Below are positions 2,715 to 43,518 of a DNA stretch of 64,000 nt, piece after piece (position 1 is the first letter of the stretch; each line of letters starts with the position of its first letter). The stretch covers positions 62,001 to 126,000 of the forward strand of contig NZ_JASNWF010000021.1 in the NCBI RefSeq assembly GCF_030283205.1, given 5' to 3'. Under the pieces are notes generated by a model that was not told the origin of the DNA, did no database searches, and saw only the letters and a program-made list of their open reading frames with translations. The translations under genes were made by a program, and so were the position numbers. This DNA is from Actinomadura opuntiae. Lineage in GTDB: Bacteria; Actinomycetota; Actinomycetes; Streptosporangiales; Streptosporangiaceae.

Positions 2715-3149
2715 ATGGCGGACCGCACGAGTTCTTCCATCACGATCAAGGCCGCGAAGGCCGACATCATGGCGGTGATCGCCGATCTGGAGGCCTATCC
2801 GGACTGGGCGAGCGGGATCCGCGAGTTCACCGTCCAGGAGACCGGCCCGGACGGCCGGGCGCTGCGCGGCCGGCTGACCTTCGACGGCGGCCCGTTCAGC
2901 GACACCGTCGGCCTCGCCTACACCTGGGAGGGCGACGACCGGGTGAGCTGGGAGCTGGTGGAGAAGGGCGCCGTCGTCACCGGGCTGCACGGCACCTACG
3001 CGCTCGCCGGCGCCGGCGACGCCACCGAGGTCACCTACGAGCTGGCGGTGGACGTGCGCGTCCCGATGATCGGCATGGTGAAGCGCAAGGGCGAGAAGCG
3101 CATCATCGACTCGGCGCTCAAGGGCCTCAAGCGCCGCGTCGAGAGCTGA
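2715..3149 (+). CDS. SRPBCC-family protein (cyclase/dehydrase-like fold)
   Basis: A 144-residue START/Bet v1-like protein. It opens with SSSITIKAAKADIMAVIADL and has EAYPDWASGIREF, the classic Tyr-Pro-x-Trp turn of polyketide cyclase/coenzyme Q-binding SRPBCC proteins. It closes with a long basic helix (RVPMIGMVKRKGEKRIIDSA). The ATG has a strong GGAGGGAAACG site. The fold binds a hydrophobic ligand, but no catalytic residues can be assigned. Neighbours suggest a link to lipid or polyprenol handling, which is inference only. Confidence 0.8.
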   Translation: MADRTSSSITIKAAKADIMAVIADLEAYPDWASGIREFTVQETGPDGRALRGRLTFDGGPFSDTVGLAYTWEGDDRVSWELVEKGAVVTGLHGTYALAGAGDATEVTYELAVDVRVPMIGMVKRKGEKRIIDSALKGLKRRVES

Positions 3150-14496: not shown

Positions 14497-14652
14497 GCAA
14501 CGTTGCGATCGCGTGCGAAGCCAAGTTCGAGCTTGCGAGAACTTGATCGCGCAGCGAGGCCCCCAGGGCCGAGCCGGAGCGATGCAGCGATCGCACGCAG
14601 TGCCCGCCGAAGGAGGGCGCCCCAGCGCCCGACGCCAAGGGCACTGCAATCA
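14497..14652 (-). repeat. Dispersed structured repeat, copy A
   Basis: One of four copies of an approximately 150-bp element. Read on the minus strand it starts TGATTGCAGTGCCCTTGGCG and ends GCGATCGCAACG. Its first TGA is the stop codon of the DUF5954 gene (14652-14650). Stems in this copy: GCAGTGCCC/GGGCACTGC, GGGCGC/GCGCCC, CAAGTTC/GAACTTG. These arms differ from those of copies B and C, but each still pairs perfectly, which indicates selection for structure. It fills most of the space between the convergent thiI and DUF5954 genes and may end both transcripts. Confidence 0.85.
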
Positions 14653-15588
14653 AATACGGGTGTCGAAGTCTGTGGCTCTCGGTGGTTCGGGGCCGTTGGG
14701 GCCCATGAGGGTGATGCGTTCGATGCGGACGATGCGGAAGCGGCGGCCCGCGACGGCGATGCCGTTGCGGCGGGGCTCCTCCGTCAGCAGTTCGGCGGCC
14801 TCGGCGTAGGCGGACGCCTGGGCCTCGGCGAGGCCCTCCACGACGGGCGCCACGTCGCGCAGGTAGCCGATCAGCGAGTCGCGGGCCCGCTGCGGGGTGG
14901 CGTGCAGCCGGCCGACCGGGCGCCAGCGGCGCCTGCGCCCGGGCGGTCCCGCGGGGACGCGTTCGGCGACGGTGAACGCGGGCGCGAGCGTGACCGGGGT
15001 GAGGAACGCGCCGGACGGCTCGTTGCCGGCGCCGGCCGCCGCGTCGAGCACCTGGCACAGCAGCTCGGCGGTGGCGAGGTCGGATCCGGTGCCCTCGTCG
15101 GACAGCAGGTCGTAGGGGCGGCGGTAGGAGGCGGGGAGGGACGCGGGGCGCGGGTCGGGGTCGCTCGGGCGGGGCGGCTCGGGGCCGTCCGGGCCGGTCC
15201 GCACCAGCTGCTCGACCCGGACGATCGCGAACCGGCGGCCGTCCGCCGTCACCGCGTCGCACGGCCCGGACCGCAGCGCGTCCGCCGCCCGCCGGAACCC
15301 GTCCGCGGCCGCGCCGTCCAGCGGGGCGGCGAGGTCGTCGAGATGGTCGGCGAGCAGCTCGCGGGCGCCCTGCGGCAGCGGGTCGGGCGGGCAGACGACC
15401 TGCCAGCCGCCGCCGACCCGCTCGGCGGCGGTGAACAGCGCGCCGACCGCCACCAGGTCGGGGTAGGCGGCGAGGGACCGGCAGGCGTCCGCCAGCATCA
15501 CGGCGGCGACCGGGTCGACGCCGTCGAGGTCCTCCGGGAACAGCCGGCCCCCGGCGTCGCCATCGCCCATCGTCATGCCGGACATCAT
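14650..15588 (-). CDS. DUF5954-like protein with internal duplication
   Basis: A 312-residue soluble protein. Two homologous halves are evident: both end in the same block, first FAIVRVEQLVRTGPDGPEPP and then FRIVRIERITLMGPNGPEPP, each followed by RPSD or RATD. Each half also has a helix pair of the type QGARELLADHLDDLA or RARDSLIGYLRDVA. This matches the Streptomyces DUF5954 family as I recognise it; function unknown. ATG 15588 has GGGAGG at 8 nt; further in-frame ATGs at 15585, 15576 and 15570 are possible. The stop codon is the first triplet of dispersed repeat copy A. Confidence 0.8.
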   Translation of the reverse strand: MMSGMTMGDGDAGGRLFPEDLDGVDPVAAVMLADACRSLAAYPDLVAVGALFTAAERVGGGWQVVCPPDPLPQGARELLADHLDDLAAPLDGAAADGFRRAADALRSGPCDAVTADGRRFAIVRVEQLVRTGPDGPEPPRPSDPDPRPASLPASYRRPYDLLSDEGTGSDLATAELLCQVLDAAAGAGNEPSGAFLTPVTLAPAFTVAERVPAGPPGRRRRWRPVGRLHATPQRARDSLIGYLRDVAPVVEGLAEAQASAYAEAAELLTEEPRRNGIAVAGRRFRIVRIERITLMGPNGPEPPRATDFDTRI

Positions 15589-15626
15589 CCTCGCCGCCTC
15601 CCGTTCTGGCGAGTGGTTCAGACCAA

Positions 15627-16601
15627 TTAGTCGCTCCGGCCGCCGCGGTTCCCGTGCTTTCGCGGGCGCCGGACGGGCGCGACGAGCACGACGAGGCTGG
15701 CGGCGAGCAGGGCGAGGCCGACGCAGGCGACCGCGCCGAGGTGCTCGCCGAGCACCGCCGTGCCGAGGACCGCGGCGACGGCGGGCTCGGCGAGCGTCAG
15801 CGTCGTCGCGGTCGTGGCGGGCGTGCCGCGCAGGCCGCGCGTGAACAGCACGTAGCCGAGGCCGGTGGTGACGGCGCCGAGATAGAGCGCGGTCGCCGCG
15901 CCGGAGGCGGTGAGCAGCCACCCGGCGGACCCGGCCGCCAGGACGGGCAGCAGCAGCACCGCCGCGCCGCCGAACAGCGCCCCGGCGACCGCCCGGTCGT
16001 CCTCGCCGCGGATGATCAGGACGGACGCGGCCGTCGCGTACACCGCGTACGACAGCCCGGACAGCAGCGCCAGCGCGATGCCCGCCGGTTCGACGCCGGA
16101 GCCGTGCCCGGCGCCGACGAGCAGGGCGCAGCCGGCGACGGCGCCCGCCGTCGCGAGCGTCCAGCGGCGGGTGAGGACCGCGCGGCGCGTCGCCAGGCCG
16201 ATCAGCCCGGTGAACGCGGGGGCGCTGCCGATCGTGACGACGGTGCCGACGGCCACGCCGGTCCGGGTCACCGCGACGAAGAACGCGGTCTGATAGACGG
16301 CGACCGCCACGGCGCCGAGGGCGAGCAGCGCCCGGTCGCGGCGGCCGGTGAGGAGGCGGCGCAGGCCGTCGCGGCGGGTGAGCGCGGCGAGCGCGAGCAG
16401 CAGCAGCCCGCCGATGACGATCCGGGCGGCGGCGACGGAGACGCTGGAGGCGCCGCCGCCGGCGAAGGTGCGGGCCGTCCCGGTCGTGCCCCACAGGGAC
16501 GCGGCGAGCAGGATGTCGGCGTCGCCGCCGCGCGGGCGCCGGGAGGGCGCGGAGAGGCGCCGCTTGGAGGTTCTGGACGTTCTGGACGTGTGCAGTGACA
16601 C
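15627..16601 (-). CDS. EamA/DMT-superfamily transporter
   Basis: A 324-residue membrane protein with about ten hydrophobic helices arranged as two EamA repeats, e.g. IVIGGLLLLALAALTRR, ALGAVAVAVYQTAFFVAVT and, in the second half, ALYLGAVTTGLGYVLFTRGL and LAEPAVAAVLGTAVLGEHLG. The last block is the usual EamA signature near helix 9. The N-terminus is basic and contains a TSRTSRTSK repeat. It probably exports an amino acid or other metabolite, but the substrate cannot be assigned. The GTG start has GGAG at 9 nt. It lies downstream of aroF in the same direction, 262 bp apart. Confidence 0.85.
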   Translation of the reverse strand: MSLHTSRTSRTSKRRLSAPSRRPRGGDADILLAASLWGTTGTARTFAGGGASSVSVAAARIVIGGLLLLALAALTRRDGLRRLLTGRRDRALLALGAVAVAVYQTAFFVAVTRTGVAVGTVVTIGSAPAFTGLIGLATRRAVLTRRWTLATAGAVAGCALLVGAGHGSGVEPAGIALALLSGLSYAVYATAASVLIIRGEDDRAVAGALFGGAAVLLLPVLAAGSAGWLLTASGAATALYLGAVTTGLGYVLFTRGLRGTPATTATTLTLAEPAVAAVLGTAVLGEHLGAVACVGLALLAASLVVLVAPVRRPRKHGNRGGRSD

Positions 16602-23334: not shown

Positions 23335-24010
23335 GAACCCGGCGAACCGGACGCGACACCGTCCCGTGATTTTCCTTCGGAACCGCTCACCGCCGTGTGG
23401 ACCGTTCCTGGACACCGCCGCGCCCGCTCGTCGCGCGAAACCGACCGCCCGCCGTGCAACTACTCTCCGCACATCTATGACTACGAACCGTTTACCGAGC
23501 CTTGTGCTTCCCGGGTGCCGAACGGAGGCATCAGACCTCTAGTGTTCTCAGTGGCACCACACGCCACACCGCTCCGGAGGAGCGGGCGACGGACCGGACG
23601 GCCCCACCGTCCACCGCCGCGAAACCTCCCACAAAAGCAAATCCGGAGATCCGGCGAACGCCAGTCGAACGCCGGATCGTGAGTCGCCGGGTCCCGTACC
23701 GGGGGGGTGGGACCCGACGACCTGTGGCTCGGGCGCCGTTGGACAGTCGGGGGGTTGTTCAGCGGCGCCCGAGTCCTATTTATTGCATTGCCCTTGGCGT
23801 CAGGCCCTAGAGGGCCTTCCTTCGGCGGGCAATGCGGCGATCGCTGCATCGCTTCGACTCGGCCCTGGGGGCCTCGCTTCGCGATCAGATTCTTGCTTCG
23901 CTCGAATCTGGCTTCGCACGCGATCGCAACGTTCCGGTCGTTGGGGGCTTGGGTTACGGACGATCGTCTGGCGGTCCGTTGTGGCTGATGCCTCCGGCTG
24001 GGGTCGTCCG
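23335..24010. other. 676-bp non-coding region with hairpins and a dispersed repeat
   Basis: No credible gene is seen: open frames here are short, and change composition at the repeat. It holds, from left to right, CCGCTCC/GGAGCGG around 23570, GGGTCCC/GGGACCC near 23691-23715, an 11-bp stem CTCGGGCGCCG (23728-23738 with 23763-23773), and dispersed repeat copy B. The AT-richer stretch 23440-23560 may contain a promoter, but no standard boxes are convincing. Confidence 0.6.
23782..23933 (+). repeat. Dispersed structured repeat, copy B
   Basis: Same element as at 14.5 and 42.9-43.3 kb, plus orientation, starting ATTGCATTGCCCTTGGCG. Arms differ from the other copies but remain complementary: GCATTGCCC/GGGCAATGC, AGGCCCT/AGGGCCT, CAGATTC/GAATCTG. 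It lies 77 bp beyond the stop of the convergent-facing endonuclease IV gene, in inverted orientation to it. Confidence 0.85.
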
Positions 24011-42153: not shown

Positions 42154-42246
42154 GCCAGCACCCTACGGTGCGGTGGCCCGTCCCATCCCGCCGTTCTCCT
42201 GCGGATATGCCGTCGGCGCAGGTCGGGCGGCGTGCGTTCGAACACG

Positions 42247-42275
42247 TTGACGAATCGGCGACAGGGCGCTTTACT
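42247..42275 (+). promoter_or_regulatory. Promoter before HEPN gene
   Basis: TTGACG (42247-42252), a 17-bp spacer and TTTACT (42270-42275) match the vegetative sigma consensus well for a GC-rich genome. The SOS box begins 10 bp downstream, covering the expected transcription start region. Confidence 0.55.
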
Positions 42276-42284
42276 GTGAGTGCG

Positions 42285-42300
42285 TCGAACTTATGTTCGA
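42285..42300. promoter_or_regulatory. LexA (SOS) box
   Basis: TCGAAC-TTAT-GTTCGA is a perfect 16-bp palindrome in its arms and fits the actinobacterial LexA consensus (GAAC-N4-GTTC core). Its place just after a -10-like element is ideal for repression. It lies 134 bp before the HEPN start. Confidence 0.8.
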
Positions 42301-42434
42301 TGTGGCGCGGGACTCGCGGCCCGCGCCAGGGCGACGTCCCCGACCGGCGCAGCAGTGGCCGGCGGGACGGACGGCCGGGCGGAGTGAGGGGAAGCTCTCC
42401 GCCCGGCCGGCCCGAGCCCCGGAAGGAGGCAGTC

Positions 42435-42911
42435 ATGTCCGCAACGACGGCCGCGCGCGGAGCCCACTCCGCCGCCCAGCCCGCGCCGCCCCCGCGCCAC
42501 CGCGCGCTCCCGGCGCCGCGCCCGGCGCACACGGCGGTCGGCCAGCTGCACGCCGCCCGCATGGGCCTCGCCGAGGCCGCCGAGGCGACCTCGCCCGCCG
42601 TCCGCTACGTCTGCGCCCACCTCGCCGCGCTGCGCGCCGCCGCCGCGGTGCTGGCGTCCAAGGAGCCCCTGGAGACCCACCGGCGCGGACGCCCGCGCAG
42701 CGTCTGGGTCCTGCTGCCCGAAGCCGAACCCGCCCTGCGCGAATGGGCCGCGTTCTTCGCCGCCGGCGCCGACAAGCGCGCCGCCGCCGAAGCCGGCCTC
42801 CCGCGCGCCGTCACCCCGCGCGAAGCGGAGGAACTCCTCCACGACGCCGAAGTCTTCGTCACCCTCGTCGAAGACACCCTCGGCATCACCAGCCAACCCA
42901 CTCTGCCTTGA
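42435..42911 (+). CDS. SAV_6107-family HEPN-domain protein, SOS-controlled
   Basis: A 158-residue helical protein. The first 35 residues are Ala/Pro-rich; then HTAVGQLHAARMGLAEAAEA and AVRYVCAHLAALRAAAAVLA form the HEPN helices, with SVWVLLPEAEPALREWAAFF, as in SAV_6107. In Streptomyces such a gene sits with the error-prone ImuB/DnaE2 cassette, as I recall; here no such partner is seen. A LexA box and promoter precede it, so it should be DNA damage-inducible. ATG 42435 has a full AGGAGG site. Its TGA stop is the first triplet of dispersed repeat copy C. Confidence 0.82.
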   Translation: MSATTAARGAHSAAQPAPPPRHRALPAPRPAHTAVGQLHAARMGLAEAAEATSPAVRYVCAHLAALRAAAAVLASKEPLETHRRGRPRSVWVLLPEAEPALREWAAFFAAGADKRAAAEAGLPRAVTPREAEELLHDAEVFVTLVEDTLGITSQPTLP

Positions 42912-43064
42912 TTGCAGTGCCCTTGGCGGTCGGGCCCTGGGGGCCCTCCCTTCGGCGGGCACTGCGTGCGATCGCTGCATCGCTCCGGCTCGGCCCTGGG
43001 GGCCTCGCTGCGCGATCGGATTCTCGCTTCGCTCGAATCCGGCTTCGCTCGCGATCGCGACGGT
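42909..43064 (+). repeat. Dispersed structured repeat, copy C
   Basis: Begins TGATTGCAGTGCCCTTGGCG with the TGA being the HEPN stop codon, ends near GCGATCGCGACGG. Stems: GCAGTGCCC/GGGCACTGC, GGGCCC/GGGCCC (loop TGG), CGGATTC/GAATCCG, and a long-range GATCGC/GCGATC pair. Copy D follows 110 bp later in the same direction. Confidence 0.88.
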
Positions 43065-43518
43065 TCGGGTCGGCGCAGGGCTGAGGAGAGCAACAACTGA
43101 AGACACTCCGAGCCGGCCGCGCCGGCGCCGGTCGCATCCCCCCGAGCCGACCGGCCCGGCGCGGTCCGAGTTGTTTTGCAGTGCCCTTGGCGGTCGGGCC
43201 CTGGGGGCCCTCCCTTCGGCGGGCACTGCGTGCGATCGCTGCATCGCTTCGACTCGGCCCTGGGGGCCTCGCTGCGCGATCAAGTTCTCGCTTCGCTCGA
43301 AGTTGGCTTCGCTCGCGATCGCAACGGTCCAGGTCGGCGCGGGGCTGGGGGAGGACGGCTGGGGGCGCGGGATCGGTGGGTCTCGCTTTGCTCGCGATCG
43401 CGGCGGGTCGGGGCGGCGCGTGGTTGGGGTTGCCGGTTGCGGTGGTGTGTTGGGGGTCTCGGCTGAGGGCGGTGGGGCGGCGGTGGGGGGTTGGGTGGGG
43501 GTGCGCATACTCGGTGGG
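42912..43518. other. 607-bp non-coding region with two repeat copies
   Basis: Between the HEPN stop and the CoA-transferase start no credible gene is seen. It contains repeat copies C and D, and between them the stretch GAGCCGGCCGCGCCGGC forming a hairpin near 43110. A partial third unit (CTCGCTTTGCTCGCGATCGC, 43382-43401) follows copy D, and then a strongly G/T-skewed stretch 43420-43505 on the plus strand. Confidence 0.65.
43175..43327 (+). repeat. Dispersed structured repeat, copy D
   Basis: Nearly identical to copy C over its first 100 bp (GCAGTGCCC/GGGCACTGC and GGGCCC/GGGCCC stems kept). In the third stem it has CAAGTTC against GAAGTTG, one mismatch, the only imperfect pairing among the four copies. 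It is preceded by TTGTTT rather than a stop codon. Confidence 0.88.

Follow-up and report, generated by a model that had tools for sequence, protein, structure and literature searches.

A folded mobile repeat of about 200 nucleotides that prefers sites behind stop codons in Actinomadura

The 64,000-nt stretch of the Actinomadura opuntiae genome analyzed here (hereafter, the window) contains several copies of a mobile, folded repeat of ~200 nt, which prefers the site just behind a stop codon, in the sense orientation to the gene it follows, and which, as far as our searches show, represents an undescribed family. The repeat is present in most of the sampled species of a large genus, where it often marks the ends of genes. 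On balance, we favor the interpretation that it is a genus-specific, non-coding, REPIN-like mobile 3′-end element with a transcribed, terminator-like or stable 3′ end.

The original prediction placed 4 copies of the element in the window, at positions 14497–14652 on the minus strand and 23782–23933, 42909–43064, and 43175–43327 on the plus strand (copies A to D), and all 4 were recovered in these places and on these strands. The predicted extent of ~150 bp, however, was too short, the unit measuring ~200 nt once its leader and tail are counted. Each unit begins with a leader (consensus CTGTGTTNATTGC) and continues with a hairpin (P1), a branched domain (P2) that is flanked by a GCGATCGC motif on either side, and a G/T-rich tail. 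In copy C (plus strand), the leader at 42903–42913 reads CTGCCTTGATT, compared with the family consensus CTGTGTTNATTGC, and includes the TGA (42909–42911) that serves as the stop codon of the HEPN_SAV_6107 gene (42168–42911). P1 follows at 42914–42965 (GCAGTGCCC … GGGCACTGC, with the internal loops kept), P2 at 42968–43058, with GCGATCGC at each border, and the G/T-rich tail of ~47 nt, which is weakly conserved in a profile of 110 copies, at 43059–43105. The structured cores (P1 and P2) of the other copies span 14505–14652 on the minus strand (copy A, adjoining on the 3′ side the stop codon of a DUF5954 gene at 14650–16494, minus strand), 23780–23927 on the plus strand (copy B, orthologous in genomes G001, G009, and G015, with the paired changes in place), and 43173–43322 on the plus strand (copy D). 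A fifth copy, near 43375–43430 on the plus strand, is a remnant comprising a right end (GGTCTCGCTTTGCTCGCGATCGCGGCGGGTC…) without the left end. Alignment of the 4 copies reproduced the letters originally given for the first and second stems, as well as those of the third stem in copies A, B, and C; copy D, omitted from the original description of this stem, reads CAAGTTC/GAAGTTG and has one pair broken by a G-G mismatch. The remark that the loops are better kept than the arms is borne out for the internal loops of P1 in 37 aligned copies from the own genome. Some copies (23780–23965 in the window, L006, and L012 near position 3000) have another tail, ending in TTACGGACGATC, with a possible extra small hairpin.

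The boundaries of the unit are defined by the tail, which in a profile of 110 copies stays conserved for ~47 nt past the second GCGATCGC, by the period of ~200 bp in tandem arrays of other species, and by the letters kept at junctions between copies. At 28 nested or tandem junctions among 186 leader-anchored copies, each letter of the CTGTGT preceding TNATTGC is kept in 71%–85%, whereas the remaining 158 copies keep these letters less well, revealing a defined 5′ end of the element. An outer stem joining leader and tail, suspected from a few copies, was ruled out, because in 79 copies leader and tail are no more complementary to each other than after shuffling of the pairs (155 of 200 shuffles scored as high), and no terminal inverted repeat between leader and tail was seen by eye. 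Many copies have TTNAT before P1 and, judged by eye, nested copies seemingly carry TTNAT into sites without it; elements derived from IS200/IS605 keep a fixed target, such as TTGAT, at their left end.

Several variants of this architecture were encountered. A distinct subfamily with a different P1 type (CACGAGCTGCGCTCG…) forms nested and tandem arrays in Actinomadura sp. NBRC 104412 (L168, L194, and L164). In L067–L071, L178, and L193, P2 is similar but P1 has a second loop type, CTCCTCCTTCGGGC … CCATCGTCG, in place of the TTGGCGTC/CTTCGGCGG loops, as though by an exchange of modules. The ends of the element also occur in short tandem repeats, with 3 leaders in series in L012 (7552–7720, minus strand), 2 leaders in L014, and, in L030, a unit of 24 nt from the tail that is present 3 times. 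The distant copies L016 and L017 have ~120 bp behind P2 in common at 84% identity, which exceeds the usual tail and perhaps reflects an additional repeat or an extended tail.

The stems display extensive covariation, supporting the original proposal of a dispersed structured element with compensatory changes. In 82 copies aligned by fitting to the model, a procedure that leans towards structure, 97.4% of the pair cells are standard and 16 of the 40 pairs have changed on both sides. A second set of 113 further distinct copies from other named genomes, aligned in the same way, gave 93.2% pairing cells and 22 double-changed pairs out of 40. None of 500 shuffles, which ignore relatedness among the copies, reached the observed values in either set, and slid controls paired in at most 44.4% and 43.1% of the cells, respectively. 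Both larger sets of copies covary, and the covariation persists among orthologous copies. At the site of copy B, both flanks and the element are common to 4 species (the own genome G000, G001, G009, and G015, the comparison leaving aside G044 with its contig break), and the arms of P1 read GCATTGCCC/GGGCAATGC, GCTTCGCCC/GGGCGAAGC and, in 2 of the species, GCTTTGCCC/GGGCAAAGC. All 21 pairs checked (9 of the outer and 6 of the inner P1 stem, and 6 of the last P2 stem) form in all 4 species, and 5 of them have changed on both sides.

The core folds better than shuffled sequences in each of 3 single copies (z of −3.2 to −3.9), and a 213-nt region of copy C that includes leader and tail gave a z of −0.9 on the plus strand and −3.5 on the minus strand. 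Wobble pairs are distributed differently in the 2 domains. Among the wobble cells of P2, read on the sense strand, G-U outnumbers A-C by 121 to 12 in the first set and by 140 to 18 in the second. When counted by column, the excess is small and involves few pairs (13 versus 7 and 13 versus 6), and hence provides a hint rather than proof. In the outer stem of P1 the relation is reversed, with 15 A-C versus 2 G-U cells in the first set and 38 versus 12 in the second, G-U making up only 2 of 641 and 12 of 865 cells despite the many changes on both sides.

The original prediction took the paired changes to show selection for a folded structure; the changes are real, but this conclusion is not fully supported. 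Some P1 hairpins are perfect palindromes of 20–24 bp, as template switching during replication would yield, and covariation alone is therefore no proof of RNA. In 259 regions preceding a P2, collected with a pattern that may have admitted a few false ones, the perfect arm of P1 is at most 7 bp long in 252 and 20–24 bp long in 7, intermediate lengths being absent. The arm letters differ among the 7 palindromes, 2 of which (L093 and L104) are orthologous. Behind the AHCY gene, the sister genomes G029 and G043 carry an ordinary P1 and a perfect palindrome, respectively, the 3′ arm of the latter being the complement of its 5′ arm. A listed internal loop on the 3′ side of P1 is kept in 215 of the 259 regions. 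Template switching is a published source of compensatory changes and can create and maintain RNA hairpins (PMC8794818). The palindromes and the A-C excess in the outer stem of P1 fit such a process at the DNA level, and selection on the fold and DNA-level copying of one arm from the other probably both act on the stems.

One and the same locus can hold the element in full, in truncated form, in the opposite orientation, or not at all, which shows that it is mobile. The AHCY gene was found in 61 places across 60 genomes, in each of which its last 150 residues are alignable as far as the terminus. A forward element lies no more than ~12 nt behind it in 27 of the 60 genomes; in 6 others (G010, G031, G026, G037, G043, and G048) there are stub, inverted, or palindrome-only forms, and in 27 there is no element. 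This tally was made by eye and agrees with a signature scan, which found a forward P2 in 26 genomes, in addition to G014, where the copy is cut by a contig end. In 6 genomes (G014, G016, G021, G041, G042, and G057), the stub of an older copy, ending at an internal point, is followed by a new copy that begins at the leader (the new copy in G014 reaches the contig end). Deletion footprints were also observed behind AHCY, the leader being fused straight to the tail, with loss of the folded core, in G031 (L087), and only a leader-like stub being left in G010 (L092). G015 has 2 AHCY copies with equal match scores on separate contigs, representing either a duplication or an assembly artefact.

Two loci of the window provide further comparisons. 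Behind the HEPN gene, the element (copies C and D) is found in G000 and G001 and is absent from G044, G009, and G015, where, judged by eye, the gene ends 2 codons later than in the filled genomes. The copies of G000 and G001 differ over much of the inner stem, and ~150 bp of native sequence appears by eye to be missing from the filled site. Between the DUF5954 and ThiI genes (copy A), the element is full in G000 and truncated in G044, in both cases sense to DUF5954, whereas in G009 it faces the other way, sense to ThiI; G015 retains what looks by eye like a tail remnant, and G001 is empty but for a plain perfect hairpin. In comparisons of filled with empty sites, which concern old events and diverged sequences, native DNA is missing at the filled site.

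The element prefers the site just behind a stop codon, sense to the gene concerned, and often supplies the stop codon itself from its leader or P1 loop. Neighboring genes were assigned with a simple gene caller, which can err, in 2 sets of copies that may share species. The first set comprised 69 copies (78 of 82 hits were used, with 4 weak or partial ones omitted, and 9 more were dropped for overlap with gene calls), and the second 54 (99 of 114 hits were used, with the 15 lowest-scoring omitted, after which copies were set aside for lying close to a locus end (20), for following another copy (15), for overlap with a gene call (9), or for having no neighbor (1)). The nearest upstream gene is in the sense orientation for 54 of the 69 and 40 of the 54 copies, and within 30 nt sense outnumbers antisense by 37 to 4 and by 24 to 10. 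Taken together, 61 of the 123 copies lie within 30 nt of the stop codon of a sense gene and 14 equally near an antisense gene, the sense share of the near copies (61 of 75; binomial p = 3.8e-8) being computed over copies that, where orthologous, are not independent. The other 62 have no sense stop codon within 30 nt upstream. A hand count of 32 copies with a sense stop codon near their start placed this codon in the leader in 18 and as a TAG in the P1 loop in 6. More copies lie between convergent genes (31 of 69 and 22 of 54) than in any other setting, few lie between divergent ones (3 and 6), and the genes followed by the element look unrelated.

The own genome (10.5 Mb in 62 contigs) yielded 42 blast matches, 38 of them near full length (at least 126 of 156 query bases). 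In the genus, a blast search that scored a capped number of matches per genome was positive in at least 43 of 60 sampled genomes, a lower bound since G024, which scored none, carries the element behind AHCY. A covariance-model search of relatives, suggested alongside the original prediction, was run with strict filters and scoring of the best 7–12 candidates per genome; within the order it detected the element in 25 of 249 genomes, every one of them from a single genus out of 56, and within the phylum in 1 of 396, namely, the own genome. Among the matches listed in a DNA pattern scan of named genomes, 79 of 80 belong to Actinomadura and 1 to Spirillospora albida. Presence is clustered on a rough AHCY tree of 444 bases, requiring 6 changes compared with a mean of 15.1 after shuffling. 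Carriage by plasmids or phages was considered and rejected, a single copy used as the query having no match in either. A telomeric origin, considered because Streptomyces telomeres have stable GCTTCGC loops, was likewise dismissed, no P2 match being found in the first 1200 bases of 7 single-contig chromosomes or in the last 1200 bases of 3 of these. Rfam contains no family matching the window at the gathering level. One weak minus-strand match to RtT (26.8 bits against a cut-off of 45, E of 0.0055) was discarded, and it was not reproduced in 12 other loci when hits with E values of as much as 1 were admitted, that search being larger and its filters tighter. No such repeat of Actinomadura is named in the literature searched, which covers part of the whole. 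The earlier statement that no named family has this pattern holds, as far as searched, for the family itself but not for its kind, which is known from REPINs (PMC3116915).

Candidate enzymes were sought by their protein families. PF01797 (Y1_Tnp) has no match in the own genome (a draft, 97.9% complete) and is present in 12 of 43 element-bearing versus 4 of 17 element-free genomes; a RAYT/Y1 helper was accordingly rejected. The reverse transcriptase family PF00078 has 2 matches in the own genome and occurs in 19 of the 43 bearing and 4 of the 17 free genomes, and is not required, 24 of the 43 bearing genomes having no match. TnpB-like proteins (PF07282) are not required either: 10 of the 43 bearing genomes lack a match, against 33 that have one, and 12 of the 17 free genomes have one as well. 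No autonomous parent with an internal gene was seen by eye among 89 left and 58 right orphan ends, in loci most of which span at most 8 kb, and no transposase-like neighbor was found among the 25 largest clusters of near-copy proteins, as judged from the protein ends, read without annotation. The preference for stop codons, if mechanistic, points to a new mover.

According to the interpretation we favor, transcription would include the element in the 3′ untranslated region of the upstream mRNA, where P1 and P2 would be terminator-like or would provide a stable, protective 3′ end; located there, the element may do the genes no harm or be of use to them. It would propagate in trans through an enzyme, or through copying of its hairpins during repair or replication. 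Some older copies break off at an internal point, and a new copy beginning with the leader follows. Selection for the fold of the sense strand, combined with template switching from arm to arm, would maintain the covariation of the stems. Several observations speak against this interpretation. No U-run was seen by eye behind the hairpins of the own-genome copies, 62 of the 123 copies are not near a sense stop codon, copy C with its leader and tail folds little better than shuffled sequences on the plus strand, the excess of G-U in P2 involves few pairs and is reversed in the outer stem of P1, and leader and tail form no outer stem. Native terminator-like hairpins persist, judged by eye, downstream at some filled loci, so that the element is not the sole possible terminator and its role may be redundant. 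More speculatively, and in our estimation doubtful, the element could be a portable transcript end with its own copying machinery, which targets stop codons in sense, supplies both a stop and a folded 3′ end, overwrites resident copies, and has its stems rewritten by template switching.

The alternative to which we give the most weight, possible although hardly probable, is a purely DNA-level selfish hairpin, single-stranded or cruciform, without any role of an RNA fold, in which the paired changes result from template switching and exchange between copies and the site behind stop codons is merely where insertion is tolerated. The bimodal arms of P1 with 7 perfect palindromes of 20–24 bp in 259 regions, the ordinary and palindromic versions behind AHCY in G029 and G043, the scarcity of G-U in an outer P1 stem with many changes on both sides, the divergence of the inner stem between the HEPN copies of G000 and G001, and the good fold of the minus strand (z of −3.5) all point in this direction. 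Tolerance alone, however, does not explain why copies lying no more than 30 nt from a stop codon are mostly in the sense orientation; template switching would erase the internal loops, which are kept (a listed 3′-side loop in 215 of the 259 regions); and wobbles in P2 are mostly sense-strand G-U, albeit in few columns. Selection for RNA could also be the whole story, the element being a functional cis-regulatory or small RNA family that is held at conserved loci and spreads by descent and recombination only, as occupation of the same gene ends across species (AHCY in 27 of 60 genomes, copy B in 4) and the strong covariation in 2 sets of copies might suggest. This is improbable, given that presence, orientation, and variant differ between close relatives at one site, that nested, tandem, and truncated copies exist, that the genes served look unrelated, and that the window has no Rfam match at the gathering level, the weak RtT match not being repeated.

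We regard it as very unlikely that the element is one of those REP/REPIN families that depend for their movement on a RAYT (Y1 HUH) transposase or on some other enzyme of the IS200/IS605 type. It is extragenic and hairpin-forming, with tandem arrays and compensatory changes, as reported for REPINs (PMC3116915), and PMC3733652 describes CGTC-tagged REPs that likewise have no dedicated transposase. Nevertheless, PF01797 is absent from the own genome and no more tied to element-bearing genomes (12 of 43) than to element-free ones (4 of 17), PF07282 is missing in 10 of the 43 bearing genomes, GTAG precedes P1 in only 3 of 38 own copies, and CGTC, found in or near P1 in 20 of the 38, lies in the loop and not at an end, as read. 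Least credible of all is a classical MITE, which would have arisen by deletion from an insertion sequence and would possess terminal inverted repeats and a target-site duplication: the element is dispersed, short, and non-coding, but no terminal inverted repeat was seen by eye, leader and tail are not complementary in excess, at the filled HEPN site, which is old and diverged, native DNA appears to be missing and no duplication was seen, and no gene-carrying version was recognized by eye among the orphan ends.

Among known repeats, the mycobacterial MIRU is an intergenic unit located at the stop codon of the preceding gene and inserted at DTGA stop sites of operon genes; it is shorter and tied to operon junctions. 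Our element resembles it in being an actinobacterial intergenic unit that often abuts the stop codon of the preceding gene and differs in its strong fold and its commonest setting, which is the convergent gene pair (31 of 69 and 22 of 54) rather than the operon junction. Correia/NEMIS, ERIC, RUP, and CIR are, like the element, small folded mobile intergenic repeats; they are described in PMC2229807 as mostly MITE-like, CIR only partly so, with terminal inverted repeats and target duplications that are not seen in the element, and ERIC as co-transcribed and linked to mRNA stability. REPs and REPINs are similar, with many extragenic copies, hairpins, compensatory changes in the stems, ordered tandem clusters, and presumed non-autonomy (PMC3116915, PMC3733652), the compensatory changes and tandem clusters being reported for REPINs in PMC3116915. 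The element shares the dispersed, extragenic, and hairpin-forming character and the compensatory changes, but whereas REPs, as characterized in PMC3733652, are palindromes of 20–40 bp, in tagged classes with an unpaired GTAG or CGTC at one end, it measures ~200 nt, has 2 structured domains and a leader, lacks either tag at an end, and often abuts stop codons in sense. Since it has neither such a tag nor a Y1 transposase in its own genome or an association with one across the genus, we do not file it as a REP or REPIN, although it is REPIN-like. Finally, the RNA hairpins attributed to template switching in PMC8794818 share with the element perfect arms and multi-base compensatory changes per event; those are described for RNA genes, whereas here the structure belongs to a mobile repeat, the versions of which can be compared at orthologous sites. 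As covariation is routinely taken as proof of functional RNA, the question of an RNA or DNA source is a general one, and the different versions found at one gene end in many species constitute a natural series for separating selection on RNA from template switching.
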